Shown here piece after piece: positions 3,472 through 63,699 of a stretch of 64,000 nucleotides of DNA. The notes under the pieces are model-generated. The model was given only the letters and a program-made list of their open reading frames with translations, had not been told where the DNA came from and made no database searches. A program made the position numbers and the translations under genes. Source of the DNA: Clostridia bacterium (GTDB lineage Bacteria; Bacillota; Clostridia; Christensenellales; Aristaeellaceae); NCBI GenBank assembly GCA_017447185.1, contig JAFSOC010000031.1, positions 1 through 64,000 of the forward strand. The letters are read 5' to 3'. Numbering within the stretch: the stretch's first letter is position 1; each line of letters starts with the position of its first letter.

Positions 3472-5409
3472 TTACCAGATCACGGTCCGGTCTTCAGGGG
3501 CGATGTACATCGGCGTGCCTTCCTTCACCGAGGGGAAGGTCTCATAGAATTCGTCGAACTGCGCCACCGTGTAGTTGATCCGGATGTAAGGCAGGGGATG
3601 CACTTCCATGCTTCTGCTGTGTGCAGCTAAAAAATCCCGCTCCGGCGAACACGAGTGGAAGAAACCTGCGTAGGCGCGGAAGAATTCGGCATAATCGAAG
3701 TTCTCCGTCTTCTTCGCCAGGTCGAGGGACAGGCTGACGCCTGTCACATCCGGCATAAGCTCGGAAATCTTTGCGCTGCCGTTCAGCATCTCACCGTCAA
3801 ACGGTTCGATCTTGTTCATTTCCGCGATCATGGCATTCTCTTTTTCCCTGTAAACCTTAAAGCTTTCTTCTGAAAAGAGCAGTTCTTTGTCCCTGGATCT
3901 GTGCACCGCCTCATTATAGCAGAAGGCGTGGCTGAGCTCGTGGGCGATGTGGTGGCCGATCGTGCCCAATAACGTTTCCCTGCTTTCGGCGTTGAACATC
4001 GGCATGTTCAGCGCGGGGGCGCCGATCCAGATGATGCTCTGAGCAGAATCGAGAACGCCGTTGCTGGTCATCACTTTGTTGGCGTTCATCAGGTAGTGGC
4101 AGCCATTGGTATATGGCTGGCCAGCGTAGCGAAGTGTACAGTGACGAAAGAAGACATCGCATACCGCCGCCGCATCCAGCAGTGTGCTGCAGGACTGCAG
4201 AGCAGTCTTCAGCGGCTCACAGTCAAACATGCCGCCCATCGCCGTTAACGGCGCAACCTCGATCAGTTCCAGCCTTTCCAGGCATTTCTGCCTCGTCTCT
4301 TCGTCGATCCAGGTGTTCTGTATAAACCGGTTCCGCATGGCTTCCTTATACTCTTTGAACAGCGCCACGACTGTCTCCCAGTTTTCTTCCGGGCAGAAAT
4401 GCTTCAGGTAAGCCTGGTCCACCGGGATATTGCATATACTTTCGATCAGAAGGTATATGTTTCGATCCGGCGCGAAGGTATTATTCCAGGAACCTTCCGT
4501 CTTCCAGGTTTCCTCGTCCAGGTAATTCACGGAATTCTCGTACAGCTTCAGCGCGATGGCTGCCTTGAACAGATCCAGGTTTTCCGCTGTGAAGAAATGG
4601 TTTACCGCTTCGGCTTCCGCCGGCATGGAAACTTCGTAAACCGGGCCTTCCGTCTTAAATCCCATGCCGACTGCCTGCGCGTACAGCAGGGGACATTTCT
4701 CCTTCAGCTGTTCGATGGTCAGGACCGTTCCCTCAGGCCATTCGACATTTTCTTCCGGGAAGTATTCGTCGTATTCCTTCATGCGCTCCGCCAGGGACGC
4801 AGCTTCCTCTTCGCTATACTGCATGCGCATGAGCGTGGCCTTCGCTGCTTCTGTATCCTGTCCGCCCAGCAGGGATTCCTTCATGTAGACTGTGACATCA
4901 AATATGTCAGGATTGTCTTTTCCCGGCTGTATGGAAATACTGAAGAAGGAATTGCAGGGCAGGAAGCCTTCCTCCTGCAGCAGGGCAAGCAGGTCGTCTG
5001 TCGTTTCCGCGGCTTTCACCCGGTCCACCCTGGCCATCAGAGGCGCCAGGCCGTCCGCATTGCGCTTCTCCGTATCCGTAACAAATCCGTAGAGGATCCG
5101 GAGGATCTCGTCTTCCGCGTACTCTGTTGTCGTGCTCCTGCACAGGTCAAGGATCTGCCCCTGTGCGTTGACTTCCGCCTCTTCAAAGGCTGAGAGTGTG
5201 GTCATGGTCCCTTTGTCCCGTGCCTCCGCGTATGCGTCATAATTGACGTACAGGTCGAAGCTGTCTTCCACCGCCGGCCGCTCTTCCGGCAGGTTGCCCA
5301 TGAAATTTGAATTGACCCAAGGTTTTCCCTCCGGGTCTTTTTCCGCACCGGCGAGCCCGCAGCCTTCCAGCAGACACAGGGTCAGGAGCAAACTGATGAT
5401 TTTTTTCAT
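3472..5409 (-). CDS. M13 family zinc metallopeptidase lipoprotein (neprilysin-like), copy 1
   Basis: A 645-residue secreted endopeptidase of the neprilysin/PepO family. A lipoprotein signal (KKIISLLLTLCLLEGC, lipobox LEGC, Cys17) anchors it outside the membrane. The zinc motif HELSH is at about 490-494. The third-ligand motif is SELMPD (E near 550), against the usual GENIADxGG, so the second half is diverged. The family C-terminus is kept: EGTPMYIAPEDR..W. The normally conserved substrate-binding NAxY region before HExxH is also altered (SIIWIGAPALNMP). It is the last gene of a block with the C1 peptidase upstream (27-bp gap). Likely peptide degrading; reduced or shifted activity is possible. 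Confidence 0.85.
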   Translation of the reverse strand: MKKIISLLLTLCLLEGCGLAGAEKDPEGKPWVNSNFMGNLPEERPAVEDSFDLYVNYDAYAEARDKGTMTTLSAFEEAEVNAQGQILDLCRSTTTEYAEDEILRILYGFVTDTEKRNADGLAPLMARVDRVKAAETTDDLLALLQEEGFLPCNSFFSISIQPGKDNPDIFDVTVYMKESLLGGQDTEAAKATLMRMQYSEEEAASLAERMKEYDEYFPEENVEWPEGTVLTIEQLKEKCPLLYAQAVGMGFKTEGPVYEVSMPAEAEAVNHFFTAENLDLFKAAIALKLYENSVNYLDEETWKTEGSWNNTFAPDRNIYLLIESICNIPVDQAYLKHFCPEENWETVVALFKEYKEAMRNRFIQNTWIDEETRQKCLERLELIEVAPLTAMGGMFDCEPLKTALQSCSTLLDAAAVCDVFFRHCTLRYAGQPYTNGCHYLMNANKVMTSNGVLDSAQSIIWIGAPALNMPMFNAESRETLLGTIGHHIAHELSHAFCYNEAVHRSRDKELLFSEESFKVYREKENAMIAEMNKIEPFDGEMLNGSAKISELMPDVTGVSLSLDLAKKTENFDYAEFFRAYAGFFHSCSPERDFLAAHSRSMEVHPLPYIRINYTVAQFDEFYETFPSVKEGTPMYIAPEDRTVIW

Positions 5410-21320: not shown

Positions 21321-21367
21321 CCTTATAGGAAACTCTTAATTCTTAATTATGGAAGGAGATTATGACA

Positions 21368-21595
21368 ATGGAAGAAAAGAACATGCAGGAGCTGAAATTA
21401 GAGGAGCTGGAACAAGTTTCTGGCGGAAAGAAAGTGTATAATATTCGATCTCGAAAACCGATTGGTTGCGGTTGTGGTTCTACTGAATGGAATATTTATG
21501 GATGGGGCGAAAATCCGAGGGGTTACAGGATTGAATGTGTCTCATGTCATGCAAGGCATATTTATGACGGAGAATTCTGGCATAATTGGAACTAA
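21368..21595 (+). CDS. GG-leader peptide with zinc-ribbon-like mature part
   Basis: 75 residues. Leader MEEKNMQELKLEELEQVSGG has the classic ELEQVSGG double-glycine end. The 55-residue mature part contains C-x-C and C-x2-C pairs (GCGCGSTEW ... ECVSCHARH) separated by about 20 residues rich in Trp, Tyr and Gly, plus several His. It reads like a small zinc ribbon, so it may be metal-binding or disulfide-linked rather than a pore-forming bacteriocin. Start 21368 is nine bases after AGGAG; the ATG at 21362 is only three bases away. No exporter or immunity gene is adjacent; TetR-DUF998 follows. Confidence 0.75.
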   Translation: MEEKNMQELKLEELEQVSGGKKVYNIRSRKPIGCGCGSTEWNIYGWGENPRGYRIECVSCHARHIYDGEFWHNWN

Positions 21596-24592: not shown

Positions 24593-25183
24593 TTGAATAC
24601 TGATCAGGTCTCCGCGGCGGTTCTGGCCGGAGGTTACAGCAGCCGGATGGGACGCGATAAGGCGCTGCTGGAATGCGACGGGCATACGCTGCTGGGCATC
24701 CATGTTTCCCGCCTGAAAGCGATCGGGGTCGGAGAGATCCTGCTGTCAGGAACGCCCCATCAGGTTCCCGGAGCCCGGAACGTGGCGGATCTTTACCCCC
24801 ATCGGGGTCCACTCAGCGGTGTACACGCGTGTATGCGGTGCGCCGCTTTTCCCGCCCTGCTGGTCGTGAGCGTGGATGTACCGCTGATTCCGGCGGATAC
24901 CCTACGCCAGCTGATTCACGACCATAGCGGCGGCATCACCGTATTGGAACACGCCGGCCGGCTGGAACCGCTGATGGCCGTGTACAGCTGCGATCTGGCG
25001 GAAGAGGCGGAGCGCATCCTGAACTCTGACCGGCATGCCATCAGCCGGCTGTTTGATAACGCGCCTGTGCGACACTGCCCCTACCGGGATGACGAACGCC
25101 TGCTGTCCGGCTGCAACACGCCGGAAGAGTACACCCGCGTCCTGGCCTATCACTCTTCTCTCTCCATGGCAGCCAGGGACTGA
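24593..25183 (+). CDS. mobA: Molybdenum cofactor guanylyltransferase
   Basis: 196 residues. The nucleotidyltransferase signature LAGGYSSRMGRDKALLE near the start binds GTP; DVPLIP (metal-binding Asp) and RLEPLMAVY are further family motifs. MobA joins GMP to molybdopterin to give the guanine dinucleotide cofactor. The start is TTG at 24593, preceded by AAAGGGG; no in-frame ATG lies before the conserved motif. Its 3' end overlaps the ABC exporter gene on the other strand by 34 bases, so the two transcripts converge without a terminator between them. Confidence 0.88.
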   Translation: MNTDQVSAAVLAGGYSSRMGRDKALLECDGHTLLGIHVSRLKAIGVGEILLSGTPHQVPGARNVADLYPHRGPLSGVHACMRCAAFPALLVVSVDVPLIPADTLRQLIHDHSGGITVLEHAGRLEPLMAVYSCDLAEEAERILNSDRHAISRLFDNAPVRHCPYRDDERLLSGCNTPEEYTRVLAYHSSLSMAARD

Positions 25184-27243
25184 TACGGTTCACAGATTTC
25201 CATCAGCTGCTCATGGGTGCCCTCCGCGAGAATCCGGCCATCCTGCATGTACAGGATCCGATCCGCGTTTGCGATGGTTGAGAGCCGATGCGCAATGATG
25301 ATGACGGTACGGTTGTGGCGCAGGTTGTCGATCGCCTGTTGAATTCTGGCCTGCGTCATATTGTCCAGGGCGGAAGTCGCCTCATCGAAGAGGATGATCC
25401 GGCTGTCCCGGAGGATGCAGCGGGCAATGGCCAGCCTCTGTCGCTGGCCGCCGGACAGATTGACGCCGCCTTCGCCGATCATGGCATCATATCCGCCGGG
25501 CATATTCTGAATATCCTCGTCGATACAGGCCTGCCGGCAGACGTTCCGCATCTCCTCATCAGTCAGATCCGGTTTGACCAGCTTCAGATTATCTCGGACA
25601 GACATACGGAAAATATATGGGTTCTGGGTAACTACTGTCATATTGGCCCGAACGGCATTCCGGCTCAGTTCCTGCATATCGATTCCGTCAAAAAGGATCC
25701 GACCGTTGGTGGGATTATACAGCCTTGAAAGCAGGTTAAACGTCGTGGTTTTTCCGCACCCGCTCTTTCCCACCAGGCCGACCATTTCGCCGGGATGGAT
25801 GGTGAAGCACAAATCTTCCAGCACCTTCGGATACTTCCTGTCCTCTGGATGATAGGAAAAGCGGACATGCTCGAAGGTAATCTCGCCCCTGGGATCGGGC
25901 AACTCCTTTTCTCCAAAATGCTCTTTGGGAAATTCCGGGCTGTTCAGCAGGGCGTGGACTCTTTCGTTGGAAACATTGAAATCCGCGATGGAATCCATAA
26001 AATTGCCGATTACCTTGATGGCGTTCGGCCCCAGATCAGAATAATAGTTGTAGAGCACCAGGGCTGTTGACATGGACAGCCTGCTCTGAGAGGTCAACCA
26101 GGCTAGCAGGGTGATCATGGCGAAGGAACCGACCTCGCCGATTTCCCAGCGGAAGAGCTTTGATCTCCAGGAGCGGGTCTGCATAAAGAGCCGCTTGTCG
26201 TTGGCGGCGTTTATCCGCTCTTCCAGCTCGCCGGAAAACCGTTTTTCACAGTTCATCAGCTTTACATCCTTTTCGCCCCGTACCATTTCTCCCACCAGGC
26301 CGGAGAAACGCTCGTTGGCGATCCTGTAAACGCGGTCATCCTTATACAGCCTTTTAGTTCTCCGGTATTCCAGCAGGTACTGGGTGCCCAGGATCACGAT
26401 GACAAAGAGGGCGATCAGCGGATGAACGATCACCATGGCACACAATACGCCGATGTAGTTCAGTGCCTGGGTGATCATATCGGCAATATTGTTAAACCCG
26501 GACGCGATCCGCTGGGTATCGGTTGTGATCCGCTGAATAAACAGGCCGCTCCCCTTCTCATCCATGCACTGGCTTTCCACCCGCAGAGCGTTGTCCACCA
26601 GATCCTTTTCCAGGTTGCTCAGCGTCCGGGCATAGGCCCGGTTATATCCCTGGTTGCTGATCACCAGAAACAGGTTTCGCAGCAGCTGGATGATCATCAG
26701 TGCCAGGGCGGTATAGATCACGCGGGTGCCTTCATGCTGGGTATAGGAGACAATGATCCTGGCGCTGACGATCGGCGCTACGATACCCAGCCCTGCGCTG
26801 ATCATCTGAGAGATGAGGGAAAGGCCCAGGGTTTTCCGGCTGTCGACCGTGTATTTCCAGGAAAACCGAATATTCTTCCATGTTGTGTTATAAAGCGTGA
26901 AGAAGAAATCAATCCGGTTCTGATTCTTTTCATACCGCCAGACGGGCGTGTTTCTGGCCCGCTCAGCCAGAATGTTCAGAATTTCGCTGCTTTCGGCAAA
27001 GGGATTTACCGATTCTCCGGCGACGGTCAGATACGTGACCAGATTCCCGCTTATCTTCCGGTAGCTGATCGTGAAGGCGGCGTCTTCTCCAAGGCGTTCC
27101 CGGTAAATCAGCAGAACTTCTTCCAGCGCAAGCCGATAGGCCAGGCAGATTTTTTCTTCAATGCCCGCGCGCTCCAGTTCCGTTTTGCCGGCCTCAACCA
27201 CCCGAACGATTTCCTCGTTCGTCAGTTTTCCGCGATACTTCAT
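25150..27243 (-). CDS. ABC exporter (TMD-NBD half transporter) with HATPase-like N-terminal appendage
   Basis: 697 residues. Residues about 130-420 carry six membrane helices; the C-terminal ATPase has Walker A (GLVGKSGCGKTT), Q-loop, signature LSGGQRQRLAIARC and Walker B (IILFDEATSALD), then the switch His (IIAHRLS). Residues 1-100 are not a C39 peptidase; they read like half of a histidine-kinase-type ATPase (IEEKICLAYRLALEEVLLIY, the N-box helix, without the Asn and without G boxes). GGAGG precedes the start. Last gene of an operon with NTPase, ECF S and molybdopterin-fold genes. Substrate unknown. A close paralogue lies at 61618. Confidence 0.88.
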   Translation of the reverse strand: MKYRGKLTNEEIVRVVEAGKTELERAGIEEKICLAYRLALEEVLLIYRERLGEDAAFTISYRKISGNLVTYLTVAGESVNPFAESSEILNILAERARNTPVWRYEKNQNRIDFFFTLYNTTWKNIRFSWKYTVDSRKTLGLSLISQMISAGLGIVAPIVSARIIVSYTQHEGTRVIYTALALMIIQLLRNLFLVISNQGYNRAYARTLSNLEKDLVDNALRVESQCMDEKGSGLFIQRITTDTQRIASGFNNIADMITQALNYIGVLCAMVIVHPLIALFVIVILGTQYLLEYRRTKRLYKDDRVYRIANERFSGLVGEMVRGEKDVKLMNCEKRFSGELEERINAANDKRLFMQTRSWRSKLFRWEIGEVGSFAMITLLAWLTSQSRLSMSTALVLYNYYSDLGPNAIKVIGNFMDSIADFNVSNERVHALLNSPEFPKEHFGEKELPDPRGEITFEHVRFSYHPEDRKYPKVLEDLCFTIHPGEMVGLVGKSGCGKTTTFNLLSRLYNPTNGRILFDGIDMQELSRNAVRANMTVVTQNPYIFRMSVRDNLKLVKPDLTDEEMRNVCRQACIDEDIQNMPGGYDAMIGEGGVNLSGGQRQRLAIARCILRDSRIILFDEATSALDNMTQARIQQAIDNLRHNRTVIIIAHRLSTIANADRILYMQDGRILAEGTHEQLMEICEPYQSLAAMEREE

Positions 27244-57188: not shown

Positions 57189-57268
57189 AAAACCAAAATT
57201 TCGGTTGCATACGCAGCTGCCAATCCATTCGGACAGGCAGCTTTTTTCTGCAAGCACAAATGTTACAG
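57189..57268. repeat. 80-bp terminator-containing repeat, copy 1
   Basis: Same DNA as 59161-59240 apart from a handful of changes. The core AGCTGCC / GGCAGCT stem followed by TTTTTT is a rightward terminator; here it closes the HD-GYP gene. Confidence 0.75.
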
Positions 57269-57942
57269 AATTGTAAATGGCAAGGAGAATCAGATATTTT
57301 GGCTAGCCCAGATTGTCTGAGCTCCTGAAAAGTATACCATTTCTGCATGATGAACGATAGGAATACATCAGATCTTTCTGTGCAATGGCTGACAAATAAC
57401 GCAACTATAAAAGTCCAAACAACATTGGCCAGTTACAGAAATCCTATGGAAAACCATTGACACTTACTCAGATGACGGAGGCGCTTCCTCAGATTACGTC
57501 TTCTGGACGATATCCTGCTCTGCATTTGCGGAGCAGAATTTTATCTATCTGATCCCGGATATAGAAAATATGACAAAATGGTTCTGACGAAAAGCACCGA
57601 CAAAAAGGCACAAAAAAAGAAATGGCTCCGCGTTTACCGCACACCCAGCTACAAGAAGCCAGGAAGACATTTCTCAATGATAAAGTACCACAAGCGTCCT
57701 GCTCCGAAAGCTGAAGCTCAATACCTGGGACGGCACCAACGAAACCGTGGAAGCCTGCCTGGAAGCAGGGGAAACCCTCACGGACACAGGAGGAAATAAT
57801 GTAACCGTACAGACAACCGGAACACTGCCCCTGCCCGTGCAGGAGCTGCTGCCGGTTCCGGTTGGAGTGGCCGTGGTCAGGTATTAGTTTTTGCCGATTA
57901 AAAAGCGTTCGTCCTTTTCAGGGAGCGAACGCTTTTGAGGTT
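57269..57942. other. Gene remnants without an intact gene
   Basis: Several short frames end quickly. The clearest, about 57685-57887 on the plus strand, reads VLLRKLKLNTWDGTNETVEAC, then GGNNVTVQTTGTLPLPVQEL and a stop, like the end of a surface or beta-rich protein; it lacks a start and a ribosome site. I cannot assign it. Confidence 0.4.
57898..57935 (-). terminator. Terminator of the IF-1-like peptide gene (bidirectional)
   Basis: AAAAGCGTTCG / CGAACGCTTTT stem; on the minus strand it ends in five T just past the stop at 57943. Confidence 0.75.
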
Positions 57943-58221
57943 TCAAGGATTCCTCTTGTATCTCCACGTGAGCCGGTTGCCCTCCACCCGAACCCGGTCG
58001 CCAACCAATATTCTGTCGTGCCTCATTCTCTGCTTTCCGTCTAAACGGACGGTGACCAGCTGCCCGCCGACGTCCACATTGAACCTGTCGTAGGGCAGGA
58101 GCTCGACCACTGTACCGTCCGCTCCGTCTTTTTCACCGCCTGATCCGAAACCGCCTGCCACGAGTTCAAGCGTATCCAGATCCAGCTCTTCCACCGGCGG
58201 TTTCCCGGGTCTGTTATTCAT
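57943..58221 (-). CDS. GG-leader precursor with an IF-1-like (S1/OB) mature domain
   Basis: 92 residues. Residues 1-24 (PPVEELDLDTLELVAGG at the end) form a double-glycine leader. Residues 35-90 read as translation initiation factor IF-1: DGTVVELLPYDRFNVDV, GGQLVTVRLDGKQRMRHD, RILVGDRVRVEGNRLTWRYK, aligning with GTVLETLPNTMFRVEL, GKMRKNYIRILTGDKVTVE and FRSR of E. coli IF-1. It lacks about seven residues of the final loop. The start at 58221 is fixed by AGAGGAGG eight bases upstream; the ATG at 58248 would place a second start in the ribosome site. Either an exported IF-1 mimic or an IF-1 paralogue with a chance leader. A bacteriocin-like gene is divergent from it. Confidence 0.75.
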   Translation of the reverse strand: MNNRPGKPPVEELDLDTLELVAGGFGSGGEKDGADGTVVELLPYDRFNVDVGGQLVTVRLDGKQRMRHDRILVGDRVRVEGNRLTWRYKRNP

Positions 58222-58406
58222 CACAGCATCCTCCTCTTTGTTTTCCATTTTTCCGTACCCGCCTCCTCCCGAAGAGAGCGGGGTCTGTATGTTTCTATTA
58301 GTATATACGACGATGTTTCCGATCCGGCATGTTCCTGTATAAATTTAATAATTCTGTAACATTTTCGCTGTCCAGGTCATCATTTACTCGAGGAGCTAAT
58401 ACAGCA

Positions 58407-58679
58407 ATGAACACTTATGCCAAAGTCCAATCCCTCATTGTTCAGTCTGTAATGGATACGTACGGTGTTGATGTCGCTTATATAACGGCCCAGCAGCTGC
58501 AGGTCATCGCCGGTTCCGCCAACCTGCTCGAGCTCTATGGTCCCGAAACGCTCCGCAAACATTCCTGGTCTGCCATCTGCTTCACCCCCCGACGCAGAAA
58601 GAATCTTAACCCAATCCGAAAGATATTCAAATTCCACCCTTCCCTGCCGGTACGTATATACAAGTGCAAGGAGCAATGA
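58407..58679 (+). CDS. Small hypothetical protein, possibly degenerate
   Basis: 90 residues. First part (YAKVQSLIVQSVMDTYGVDV...ITAQQLQVIAGSANLLELYG) is protein-like and ends with a helix resembling a GG-leader core (QLQVIAGS); the second part (SAICFTPRRRKNLNP...) looks random. GAGGAG lies 12 bases before 58407, a long spacing. Possibly the frameshifted remains of a peptide precursor. It directly precedes the 58730 gene in the same direction. Confidence 0.35.
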   Translation: MNTYAKVQSLIVQSVMDTYGVDVAYITAQQLQVIAGSANLLELYGPETLRKHSWSAICFTPRRRKNLNPIRKIFKFHPSLPVRIYKCKEQ

Positions 58680-58729
58680 AGCTCCTGCAGATAATAAAAA
58701 CAACGCCCACAGGGCAGGAGGAAAAGAAT

Positions 58730-58999
58730 ATGAATACCAATATGATGGAACTGAACCTGGACGAAATGGAAATGGTAAACGGCGGCGACTGGAGGGACCG
58801 TATTGCGGGAGCTGTCAGTGGAATGGCCATGGGCGGTACCGCCGGGGCGATTGCCGGCACGGCGGGTGGTCCTGTAGGAATTGTCACCGGCCTGATCGGC
58901 GGCGGGGCCTTCGGCGCAGTGGTCGGCGGAGCCATGGGCTGTGAAGTATTAAAGAAAAAAATCCAGGAAGCCAAGAAAGCAGTAGAGGATATTTTCTGA
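58730..58999 (+). CDS. Class II bacteriocin-like precursor with GG leader
   Basis: 89 residues. Leader MNTNMMELNLDEMEMVNGG, then a 70-residue glycine- and alanine-rich mature part (GMAMGGTAGAIAGTAGGPVG and LIGGGAFGAVVGGAMGCEVL) with several GxxxG motifs and a basic amphipathic tail (KKKIQEAKKAVEDIF). GxxxG-rich mature parts are typical of two-peptide (class IIb) bacteriocins that pair in membranes. AGGAGG is nine bases before the start. A likely frameshifted second peptide tail (KIDKPLLGWIGKVIKSIFD) follows at 59017-59074. No immunity or C39 exporter gene is adjacent; the ABC gene at 61618 is the nearest exporter. Confidence 0.78.
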   Translation: MNTNMMELNLDEMEMVNGGDWRDRIAGAVSGMAMGGTAGAIAGTAGGPVGIVTGLIGGGAFGAVVGGAMGCEVLKKKIQEAKKAVEDIF

Positions 59000-59160: not shown

Positions 59161-59240
59161 AAAACCAAAATTTCGGTGGTCTACGCAGCTGCCAATCCAT
59201 TCGGACTGGCAGCTTTTTTCTGCAAGCATAAATGTTACAG
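59161..59240. repeat. 80-bp terminator-containing repeat, copy 2
   Basis: Partner of 57189-57268; here the AGCTGCC / GGCAGCT hairpin plus TTTTTT closes the bacteriocin-like gene. Confidence 0.75.
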
Positions 59241-59324: not shown

Positions 59325-59438
59325 TTACGGAGCAGTAGAAGGAATTCCTACAATGGGGATGTTTTCTGCCTGCATCAAATCGTGTATACAGCGTCGAATT
59401 GCACCACGATCAACCGATCGGCCGTCTTTTCCTAGCAT
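59325..59438 (-). pseudogene. Helix-turn-helix fragment
   Basis: DGRSVDRGAIRRCIHDLMQA, ENIPIVGIPSTAP: resembles the first helices of winged-helix domains that read GLRRAVNRLRSDGIPI. It is cut off after 37 residues and overlaps the end of the GG-leader remnant. Low certainty. Confidence 0.35.
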
Positions 59439-59706
59439 TATATATATAATCATTGGAATCTTTCGCAAGCTTCTCATTGTTTCCGGCCAGCATAATATCC
59501 TGTGCGACTCTAAATGTCCTGTCTTCACAGAACTTCTGAACCGGTGCAGCGATATTCCGGACGAACCAATCGACCACGCTTCCTCCGCTGACCTGACCCA
59601 ATTCCTCCAGGCTGATTTCCCCGGGCTTTGTCTCGAAAGCCTTCAGATCCTCACCGGTGAGGTCGATATCCAGAATGCTTTTGACCGCCTTGATCGTGGC
59701 TTCCAC
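59410..59706 (-). pseudogene. GG-leader (NHLP/Nif11-like) peptide precursor, probably 5'-truncated
   Basis: About 98 residues open from a GTG at 59706: VEATIKAVKSILDIDLTGEDLKAFETKPG, then EISLEELGQVSGG, a long leader of the type found on modified or NHLP peptides, then VVDWFVRNIAAPVQKFCEDRTFRVAQDIML. No ribosome site or ATG precedes the frame, and a stop lies just upstream, so the true start seems lost. The core has one Cys. It is read away from the MATE gene. Unlike the other GG peptides here, its leader exceeds 40 residues. Confidence 0.55.
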
Positions 59707-61617: not shown

Positions 61618-63699
61618 TCAGGAAGGGAGCTCCTCGCTGTAAAGCCTGCGGTATTCCTCGCAGCCTGCCAGCAGCTCCTGATGCGTTCCGCTGGCAAGCA
61701 CCCTGCCCTCCGAGATAAAGAACAGGCGCTCACAGTTCATGACGGTGGACAGCCGGTGAGCGATGATGATCACCGTGCGTCCGCCGCGCGTTTTTTCGAT
61801 CGCCCGGGTGACGTCGGACTGGGTGGTGTTGTCCAGGGCGGAGGTGGCTTCGTCCAGCATGATAATCGGCGTTTCACGCAGCAGGCTCCGGGCCAGCGCG
61901 ATCCGCTGTCGCTGACCGCCGGACAGCTGCACGCCGCCTTCTCCGACCACCGTGCCGTAGCCGTCCGGGAAGGCCATGATATCCTCATGAATACAGGCGG
62001 CTTTGCAGGCTTCGATCATTTCCTCGTCCGTCAGATCCTTTTTCACAACCGCCAGATTGTCCCGGATGCTCATATTGAACAGATAGGGCATCTGGCTTAC
62101 CACGGTGATATTTCCGCGAATCGTATCCTGATCCAGCGATTCCACGGGAACGCCGTCGATCAGAACCGATCCGCTGTCCGCGTCGTACAGGCGGGAGAAA
62201 AGGGAAAGGATGGTGGTTTTTCCGCATCCGCTTCGTCCTACCAGGGCCACCGATTCGCCGGCATGGATTTTCAGGGAGGCGCCGCGCAGCACCCTGTTTT
62301 CTTTTCCGTCCGCCTGGCGGTAGGAGAAGGAGACATCCCGCAATTCCAGCTCGCCGCGCACATGATCCAGATGCCTGGTGCCAAACTGCTCCCACGCATA
62401 ATCCGGACTGTTCATCAGCTGGTAAATCCGCTCAATGGAAACGCCCAGGCTGTAAGCGGTAGACATCAGGTTCGCCAGATCCGAGGCGCAGGTATATACC
62501 CTGCCGTTGTAGTTGAACAGAACCAGCGCGGTGGAAGGGGCCATGCTGTGGTTCGCCATCAGAAACGCCAGCAGAAACATATAGGCGCAGCTGGTCCAGC
62601 TGACAAACTGGGAGCGCAGCAGAATGAAATTCATTGACCTGCGGCGCATCCGGGATGCCAGATCCACGCTTTCACGGACGCTTCCGGTGAATTTTTCCAT
62701 AAAACTGTCTTCACAGTGAAGCAGTTTGATATCCCGGTGGGCGCGGGCCATTTCGCTGACAAAGCCGCTGTGCCGTTCATTGGCCACGCTGGTTTCACGG
62801 CCGTTCTGCTGCAGGCTTTTGCTGTGCGCCCGCTGAATGAGCATATAGATCACAAAAAGCGCCAGCTCGAACAGAAACATCGGAACGGAGACGATGGCGA
62901 AACCGATCAGCAGGCTGATCAGCCGGAAGGCTTCCGTGAACGTTCCCAGGAGTTCATCGATCCCGTCAACGATATCGGCGGTATCATTCAGCAGGCGCCG
63001 TGAAAAGGCACCGCTGCCGGCTTTGTCCATCCGGTCTGTCCGGATGCGCAGAATCCGCGCCGCCAGATCGATCTGCATCCGTTTCTGCATGGACGCGTAG
63101 GTCGCCCGGAGCAAGCGGCTCGCGGCATAGTTGATCAGGCTGCTCAGCACCCCCTGGCCCAGGATCAGCAGCGCCAGCAGGGCAATTTTCCGGATTTCCG
63201 ACTCCGTATAGGCCACGATGATCCAGGCGGAGAGCATCGGTTCCAGGACGGAGAGCGCCATGTTGAGAAAGCGCAGGAATACAGCCCACCGGAAGGTGTG
63301 CTTTTCATTCCGCATATACTGCCAGATATACCGAAGGCTCCGGAAGTCCTTCATGGGAGTCTGGAAAGTGCAGAAAATGATGTTCTGACGCCTGATATAT
63401 TTCCAGAAAAGGCCATGGGGAAAGTTTTCCCGTATTTTATCGGCAATGAAGCTTGCCTGCTCCTTCAGCAGGTTCCGGCTTTCACAGGCAACATGCAGCG
63501 ACAGGAACACCCGTTTCCATGTGCGCTTCAGAACCAGACGATAAGAGATTTCTTCTCCGTACAGGTCGCGGTAGCCCAGCAGCAGCTGCTCCAGCAGCAG
63601 GCGGTAGCCCAGCCGCTTCTGACGGTCCGCGCCGTTGGCTTCCATAAAGCGGTCCGCCTGATCCACGGTCCGCTGGATGTTTTCCAGGGTCAGATTCAT
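61618..63699 (-). CDS. ABC exporter with HATPase-like N-terminal appendage (paralogue of 25150)
   Basis: 693 residues. N-terminal 110-residue domain (TLENIQRTVDQADRFME, KRLGYRLLLEQLLLGYRDLY, LHVACESRNLL) matches the domain on the 25150 exporter rather than a C39 peptidase. Then six helices and an ATPase with Walker A LVGRSGCGKTT, signature LSGGQRQRIALARS, Walker B IIMLDEATSALD and switch IIAHRLS. GGAGG precedes the start. It follows a partial gene by 48 bases. Nearest exporter to the IF-1-like and bacteriocin-like GG peptides, but without a visible leader peptidase. Confidence 0.88.
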   Translation of the reverse strand: MNLTLENIQRTVDQADRFMEANGADRQKRLGYRLLLEQLLLGYRDLYGEEISYRLVLKRTWKRVFLSLHVACESRNLLKEQASFIADKIRENFPHGLFWKYIRRQNIIFCTFQTPMKDFRSLRYIWQYMRNEKHTFRWAVFLRFLNMALSVLEPMLSAWIIVAYTESEIRKIALLALLILGQGVLSSLINYAASRLLRATYASMQKRMQIDLAARILRIRTDRMDKAGSGAFSRRLLNDTADIVDGIDELLGTFTEAFRLISLLIGFAIVSVPMFLFELALFVIYMLIQRAHSKSLQQNGRETSVANERHSGFVSEMARAHRDIKLLHCEDSFMEKFTGSVRESVDLASRMRRRSMNFILLRSQFVSWTSCAYMFLLAFLMANHSMAPSTALVLFNYNGRVYTCASDLANLMSTAYSLGVSIERIYQLMNSPDYAWEQFGTRHLDHVRGELELRDVSFSYRQADGKENRVLRGASLKIHAGESVALVGRSGCGKTTILSLFSRLYDADSGSVLIDGVPVESLDQDTIRGNITVVSQMPYLFNMSIRDNLAVVKKDLTDEEMIEACKAACIHEDIMAFPDGYGTVVGEGGVQLSGGQRQRIALARSLLRETPIIMLDEATSALDNTTQSDVTRAIEKTRGGRTVIIIAHRLSTVMNCERLFFISEGRVLASGTHQELLAGCEEYRRLYSEELPS

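Follow-up and report, generated by a model that had tools for sequence, protein, structure and literature searches.

A fast-changing family of IF-1-like genes with a double-glycine leader in Clostridia, probably encoding secreted proteins

In a stretch of 64,000 nucleotides from a Clostridia bacterium (the window), a gene was found that joins a 24-residue double-glycine (GG) leader to the OB fold of translation initiation factor IF-1 minus most of its last loop. This gene, here termed GG-IF1, is a member of a real and fast-changing gene family, and from comparison of its sequences the product is probably secreted and antibacterial. The cargo for which GG-leader exporters are known consists of short peptides with antimicrobial or signalling roles. 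Conservation of such a leader ahead of an IF-1 fold would mean that an essential intracellular factor has been turned into an exported protein, and GG-IF1 gives a genetic test of the reports of antibacterial extracellular IF-1. Should it turn out to block the 30S A site of other cells, GG-IF1 would count as a protein that inhibits translation initiation. The first-pass annotation, made from the sequence alone, knew of no described GG-leader IF-1, and none was found in the open-access full-text literature that was searched.

The coordinates of the gene and of its surroundings are collected in Table 1. A rival start for GG-IF1 exists at an in-frame ATG at 58248, whose nearest GGAGG is 13 bases off and thus beyond the usual spacing; in the 101-residue reading from this longer start, the IF-1 match covers residues 43-89. 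A consensus scan of 57850-58450 returned one terminator-like site, on the opposite strand at 58267-58283, and neither the hairpin downstream of the stop codon nor a promoter-like site. A candidate 5' hairpin was unsupported (z 0.05 and 0.40).

Table 1. Features of the GG-IF1 gene and other features of the window
Feature	Position	Strand	Basis
GG-IF1 coding sequence, 92 aa	57943..58221	-	ORF and Pfam analysis; same fusion in five relatives
Double-glycine leader, residues 1-24 (V-4, L-7, L-12, GG)	58150..58221	-	Leader profile; C39 recognition positions given in the part of PMC6363468 consulted
IF-1 OB-fold domain, residues 35-90, shortened beta4-beta5 loop	57952..58119	-	Pfam, NCBIfam, solved structures, alignment, AlphaFold
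Shine-Dalgarno GAGGAGG, before ATG 58221	58230..58236	-	Read from sequence
Terminator-like hairpin and U run, directly 3' of the GG-IF1 stop	57901..57936	-	z -4.63
Phage tail gene remnant	57693..57878	+	64.5% identity over 62 aa to an L099 protein assigned by PHROGs to the baseplate region
GG-leader peptide, Bacteriocin_IIc-like, glycine-rich body	58664..58999	+	Pfam and leader profile
GG-leader ORF, leader EISLEELGQVSGG, no Shine-Dalgarno found by script	59410..59706	-	Leader profile
GG-leader protein, Cys/His-rich zinc-ribbon-like body (by eye)	21362..21595	+	Leader profile; Pfam, weak leader-type matches only
GG-leader peptide, 70 aa	11224..11436	+	Leader profile
ABC exporter without C39 peptidase; N-terminal region of about 110 aa without Pfam match	61618..63699	-	Pfam/NCBIfam scan

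The genome of the window carries a canonical infA elsewhere, at C1:91250 (102 bits), adjoining what we take to be a methionine-aminopeptidase-like gene, so that the check for a separate infA proposed at first pass did not refute the first reading. A search of 45 genomes of the genus yielded one relative of GG-IF1, in genome G229, and a search of 308 genomes of the family with a two-row profile yielded three more, in G252, G257 and G271. The gene is therefore present in 5 of 308 family genomes, the window's included, and these copies are set apart by score, with at least 69 bits versus at most 56.4 for the others among the matches listed. A sixth copy, 84% identical to that of the window, lies on viral contig IMGVR_UViG_3300033463_002399 (L099), which is phage-like with tail/baseplate, endolysin and holin genes (PHROGs). 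In all, six copies were obtained, five of them in three genera and the sixth on the viral contig. The relatives had been expected to lack the leader or to sit in ribosomal operons if the gene were an ordinary infA; all five keep the leader, and no ribosomal operon was seen in the stretches that were read.

Beyond these copies, two further viral-contig scans gave no other GG-IF1, scans of genome contigs gave none and then the G229 copy alone, and among the matches listed from plasmid and phage records none covered 80% of the query. In the order (396 genomes, E<=1e-13) and the class (391 genomes, E<=1e-18), the top matches examined besides the window's own were canonical infA (L124, L125, L127, L189); this negative rests on top matches, and a distant member could be missed. 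A script check of 102 loci found the canonical last loop in 101, L031 falling outside the script's pattern; of eight further loci, five were canonical infA, and the pattern did not match in the other three (L211, L214, L215). With contamination estimates of 8 for G252 and 9 for G271, single contigs in these two genomes could be misplaced, and the right end of L099 may have arisen in assembly, since the contig stops within a 220-bp repeat that also precedes its GG-IF1 gene. A plain, leaderless IF-1 of 71 residues was observed on a different, 160-kb viral contig (L143:7989-8204, plus strand).

The C39 peptidase recognises V-4, L-7 and L-12 of a leader, according to the part of PMC6363468 that was available. 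The window leader, MNNRPGKPPVEELDLDTLELVAGG, carries L-12, L-7, V-4 and Gly-Gly exactly as in GG-leader substrates. On a profile built from 21 other GG leaders, with the GG-IF1 sequences excluded, the scores were 17.7 bits for G229, 13.0 for the window, 10.8 for L099, 10.0 for G271, 6.8 for G257 and 6.2 for G252, and 1.5 bits for the genome's own infA. Among 30,000 shuffled proteins, one reached at least 12 bits (at 15.1), 11 at least 8 and 120 at least 5. Set against these counts, profile support is judged strong for G229, the window, L099 and G271 and weak for G257 and G252. A chance leader on the window copy was ruled out by this shuffle test, which is weaker for G252 and G257. The initial reading of residues 1-24 as a GG leader like others nearby is hence upheld.

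Across all six copies, L-12, L or M at -7, and GG are present without exception, with V-4 in four and A-4 in two. The leaders are 18-27 residues long and acidic (pI 4.1-4.2), and the bodies that follow them are cationic (pI 8.1-10.2). The G257 copy has a leader with the ending LDLDELDSAAGG, compared with LSLDELDNAAGG in another GG leader of that genome; the ending in the G271 copy is ALDLDALEQVTGG, compared with ALELNDDALEAVTGG in the leader of a GG-SH3 gene just upstream of a C39 exporter. By these endings, the GG-IF1 leaders appear to resemble the GG leaders of their own genomes. When upstream and leader DNA was searched at E<0.01, the window's genome, G271 and G252 gave the only matches, all of them GG-IF1 copies. 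Leaders of this length differ from the long Nif11 or nitrile-hydratase leader of Nif11/NHLP RiPP precursors, and no Nif11 domain was matched by Pfam in the window protein or in the relatives of G229, G252, G257 and G271.

From profile searches and modeling, the body of the window protein is predicted to have the IF-1 OB fold. It matches solved IF-1s with E 2e-7 and Pfam eIF-1a (PF01176) with E 7.6e-7 and 29.1 bits, just below the cut-off of 30.2; the relatives in G229, G252, G257 and G271, the four that were scanned, score 45.3-47.9 bits, above that cut-off. Against NCBIfam infA (TIGR00008), the window copy attains 30.7 bits, far below the equivalog cut-off of 61.15, and therefore it is not filed as infA. 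When superposed on a solved IF-1 (4ql5_B), its AlphaFold model fits to 0.7 Å over 58 residues. The profile searches and the model comparison accordingly point to IF-1, and the alignment of residues 35-90 with a last loop some seven residues short held as well: seven alignment columns are missing there, a shortening common to five of the six copies.

The residues that contact the 30S subunit have not fared equally. K39, R41 and M42 are invariant in all six copies, and the helix loop touching G530/A1492/A1493 is present in each by alignment. R46 is R or K in five copies, and H35 is kept in two. By alignment, five of the six have lost the loop bearing Y60 and R64, and the S12-facing loop is deleted in five. 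The kept triad and this deletion pull in different directions on the first-pass choice between a secreted decoy and a reused OB fold. The window copy, which has also lost N19, F44 and I45, is the most distant from IF-1 of the six (32.7 bits vs 43.9-58.7).

Selection on GG-IF1 is unlike that on infA. The two closest copies, those of the window and L099, differ at 17 coding positions, all of them nonsynonymous and at codon positions 1 or 2, with no synonymous difference; of the changed residues, 13 are in the domain and 2 in the leader, and the upstream DNA has 4 differences in 217 bases. The lack of synonymous changes has a P of 0.009 under neutrality. Nonsynonymous sites (17/209) compared with synonymous plus upstream sites (4/284) give P 4e-4, a result that upstream constraint, if any, would inflate, and the comparison with synonymous sites alone gives P 0.016. 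Nine of the 13 domain changes fall within the 15 of 53 positions that form the interface (P 5e-4), the interface set being taken from the C. difficile IF1 30S contacts in the part of PMC10913371 consulted, fixed after the sequences had been seen and applied to one pair only. For the other 14 pairs of GG-IF1 copies, dN/dS is 0.53-0.87, compared with a median of 0.036 and a maximum of 0.159 for canonical infA (887 pairs with a synonymous difference of 0.1-0.72, drawn from 48 coding sequences of 58 loci). Because of the pattern without synonymous changes, hypermutation by a diversity-generating retroelement was also considered; a template-repeat search of the window's genome (88.7% complete) with the GG-IF1 body DNA at E<=1 returned the self match only.

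Only one C39 peptidase match was obtained in the window's genome, on contig C7, in an adjacent NHLM-type exporter pair (ABC1 911.9 bits, cut-off 853.3; ABC2 736 bits, cut-off 709.4). A GG-like ORF ending NAAG lies beside this pair, at C7:736-813. C39 is present in four of the five GG-IF1 genomes, the miss being G229, which is 58% complete, and it is above the cut-off in three of the four other than the window's. The first-pass annotation had placed the gene among GG peptides and an exporter and had asked whether its homologues lie next to exporters. As far as contig fragments allow proximity to be judged, this stands in part: GG peptides are nearby, an ABC exporter without C39 lies within 4 kb, and the G252 copy shares a contig with a C39 exporter about 14 kb off. 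Class II bacteriocins are recognised by an adjacent immunity gene and a dedicated transporter; for GG-IF1, no immunity gene was noticed in an unsystematic look. The window exporter itself gave no Pfam match to C39, and G252 is the only such relative. A second exporter of the window (25150-27243, minus strand) and the one in Table 1 have similar-looking N-terminal regions of about 110 residues where C39 would be, by eye like a degenerate histidine-kinase-type ATPase domain, and each has GG peptides within about 4 kb.

The leader profile has 28 places in the window's genome, 19 of them at E<=0.05, of which four are in the profile itself; two of the 28 stand apart, L181 being plainly not of this kind and L166 lacking the second Gly. 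The genome carries some 20 further candidate GG-leader proteins. Elsewhere, the counts are 0-1 in five genomes of the genus (at least 97% complete), 4 in G229, 1 in G252, 5 in G257 and 3 in G271, a comparison biased by the inclusion of the own genome's leaders in the profile. The bodies behind the leaders in the window's genome include LysM, Cys-rich zinc-ribbon-like (by eye) and glycine-rich bacteriocin-like types, and one has a weak SH3 match (14.2 bits vs a cut-off of 27). Seven small fusions of a GG leader to a LysM-like body were observed at C8:29567, C3:13829, C1:30896, C1:141040, C34:5550, C32:42604 and C40:84148 (L162, L169, L170, L171, L174, L177 and L179, respectively); six exceed the Pfam LysM cut-off and the seventh scores 19.3 against 20.9. 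No description of such a GG-LysM fusion was found in the open-access texts searched, as far as their consulted parts extend. In G271 (L151:883-3949, minus strand), a GG-SH3_3 gene (54.1 bits), a small accessory-like protein and a C39 ABC exporter follow one another on one strand, and therefore such an exporter adjoins folded cargo. In another protein, L172 (C10:22021), a Cys-rich zinc-ribbon-like body comes after a leader that ends VAGG and is weakly Nif11-like (16.3 bits against a cut-off of 23.8). The presence of one leader type on LysM and SH3 bodies as well suggests that this Clostridia family has a toolkit of exported proteins, and the LysM bodies suggest that export is not for killing alone.

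We regard it as about an even chance that GG-IF1 is a dedicated, exported antibacterial paralogue of IF-1, with cleavage, export, antibacterial action and target all inferred. The acidic 24-residue leader would take the precursor to an ABC exporter with a C39 peptidase, presumably the NHLM pair of contig C7 with the one C39 domain found in this genome, and a cut after Gly-Gly would release a cationic mini IF-1 of 68 residues. Outside the producer, the mini IF-1 would most likely be antibacterial towards neighbouring bacteria. By one route, it would enter and occupy the 30S A site via the kept K39/R41/M42 patch; by another, it would act on the membrane, as was suggested for extracellular cationic IF-1. 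The kept triad would favour the ribosome route, and the cationic body would also fit membranes. We know of no entry route for a folded protein of 7 kDa. Counted for this reading were the leader in six of six copies, C39 in four of five genomes, the accessory distribution, the intact own infA, the change pattern of 17 to 0, the clustering at the interface, the invariant triad, the cationic body and the published IF-1 activity. Counted against it were the immunity gene not noticed in the unsystematic look, the distance of the window copy from a C39 exporter, the weak leader scores of G257 and G252, the divergence of the window copy from IF-1 with its loss of N19, F44 and I45, R46 being R or K in only five of six, the LysM bodies on other GG proteins of the genome, and an interface test framed after the fact on one pair. 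A wider scenario is offered tentatively: IF-1 may have been duplicated, acquired a leader and become an antibacterial effector with its ribosome face under diversifying selection, as one cargo among the folded domains (IF-1, LysM, SH3, zinc-ribbon-like) exported via C39 exporters, which in the genome of the window belong to the NHLM type.

Several known systems share part of this architecture. With IF-1 itself (infA; PF01176, TIGR00008), GG-IF1 has in common the fold, the order beta1-beta2-beta3-alpha1-beta4-beta5 and the GK-RM motif; unlike infA, it has a GG leader, a short last loop (five of six copies), an accessory distribution and fast evolution. An ordinary IF-1 from the culture supernatant of Paenibacillus polymyxa Kp10 was antilisterial when made recombinantly, and the portion of that report consulted refers to a comparable result from Lactobacillus sakei 2a, with membrane potential being lost (PMC7343975). 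This is the nearest support, by analogy, from which we infer the killing of rivals, an IF-1 protein acting outside the cell on bacteria being documented for Kp10 and presumed for GG-IF1. The Kp10 protein is an ordinary IF-1 of 71 residues, for which the consulted part of the article (PMC7343975) mentions no export tag, whereas GG-IF1 has a gene of its own and carries a GG leader. Similarly, an 18-residue helix-loop peptide of C. difficile IF1 inhibits bacteria, Gram-positives more according to its authors, in the part of PMC10913371 available; its helix loop is the one kept in all six GG-IF1 copies, but the peptide is a synthetic 18-mer, unlike a protein that a cell makes and exports. Class II bacteriocins and the other substrates with GG leaders that peptidase ABC exporters handle (PF10439; NHLM pair) resemble GG-IF1 in leader type, small size, cationic mature part and an exporter in the genome; they differ in that the GG-IF1 body is a folded housekeeping domain in place of a glycine zipper or short peptide, and in the lack of a noticed immunity gene. 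The phrase 'initiation factor' does not appear in the accessible part of a rumen bacteriocin survey (PMC13289728).

Other explanations have to be weighed against an antibacterial role. The mini OB fold may be exported for another purpose: once outside the producing cell it would bind nucleic acid, the cell wall or the matrix, presumably like the GG-LysM proteins. The many leader-profile places with LysM bodies and one weak SH3 match, together with the loss of the S12-facing loop, are consistent with such a protein; the invariant decoding-centre contacts and the concentration of closest-pair changes on the ribosome face argue against it, and we consider it unlikely, if still a serious contender. 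It is improbable that GG-IF1 acts inside the cell as a phage-linked modulator of translation that competes with or replaces IF-1 in the host, the leader merely masking or marking it. The phage genes on the L099 contig, the phage-tail remnant adjoining the window copy and the kept contact residues point that way, and they are opposed by the conservation of the leader, its similarity to local GG leaders and the seemingly ordinary chromosomal genes (by eye) around the G252, G257 and G271 copies.

That same phage remnant on one flank, and the position of the window copy as the most IF-1-distant of the six, would also fit a decaying fragment within a prophage remnant. The open frame, the Shine-Dalgarno sequence, the terminator-like hairpin and the nonsynonymous excess, at both P values given above (neutrality, and synonymous plus upstream sites), make decay quite improbable. 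Lastly, a housekeeping IF-1 with a chance N-terminal extension would account for the IF-1 domain, and an in-frame upstream GG, partly a translated ribosome-binding site, occurs at 37 of 101 infA loci. The separate infA and the leader conserved in every relative rule out that GG-IF1 is the housekeeping infA, and with dN/dS values far from those of infA this explanation is left with a negligible probability.

In G252, G257 and G271, the DNA shared between the copies begins about 60-75 bases ahead of the ATG and ends 20-40 bases past the stop codon. Since homology ends near the gene ends and the neighbours are unlike one another, GG-IF1 appears to move or to be kept as a single-gene unit. The G229 copy is flanked by a 67-bp direct repeat (91%; L068:3169-3235 and 3834-3900), part of which resembles a tRNA start, with no tRNA called there by ARAGORN. 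In the window, an 80-bp direct repeat (57189-57268 and 59161-59240, 93.8% identical, terminator-like by eye) flanks a 2-kb stretch containing GG-IF1 and the GG bacteriocin.
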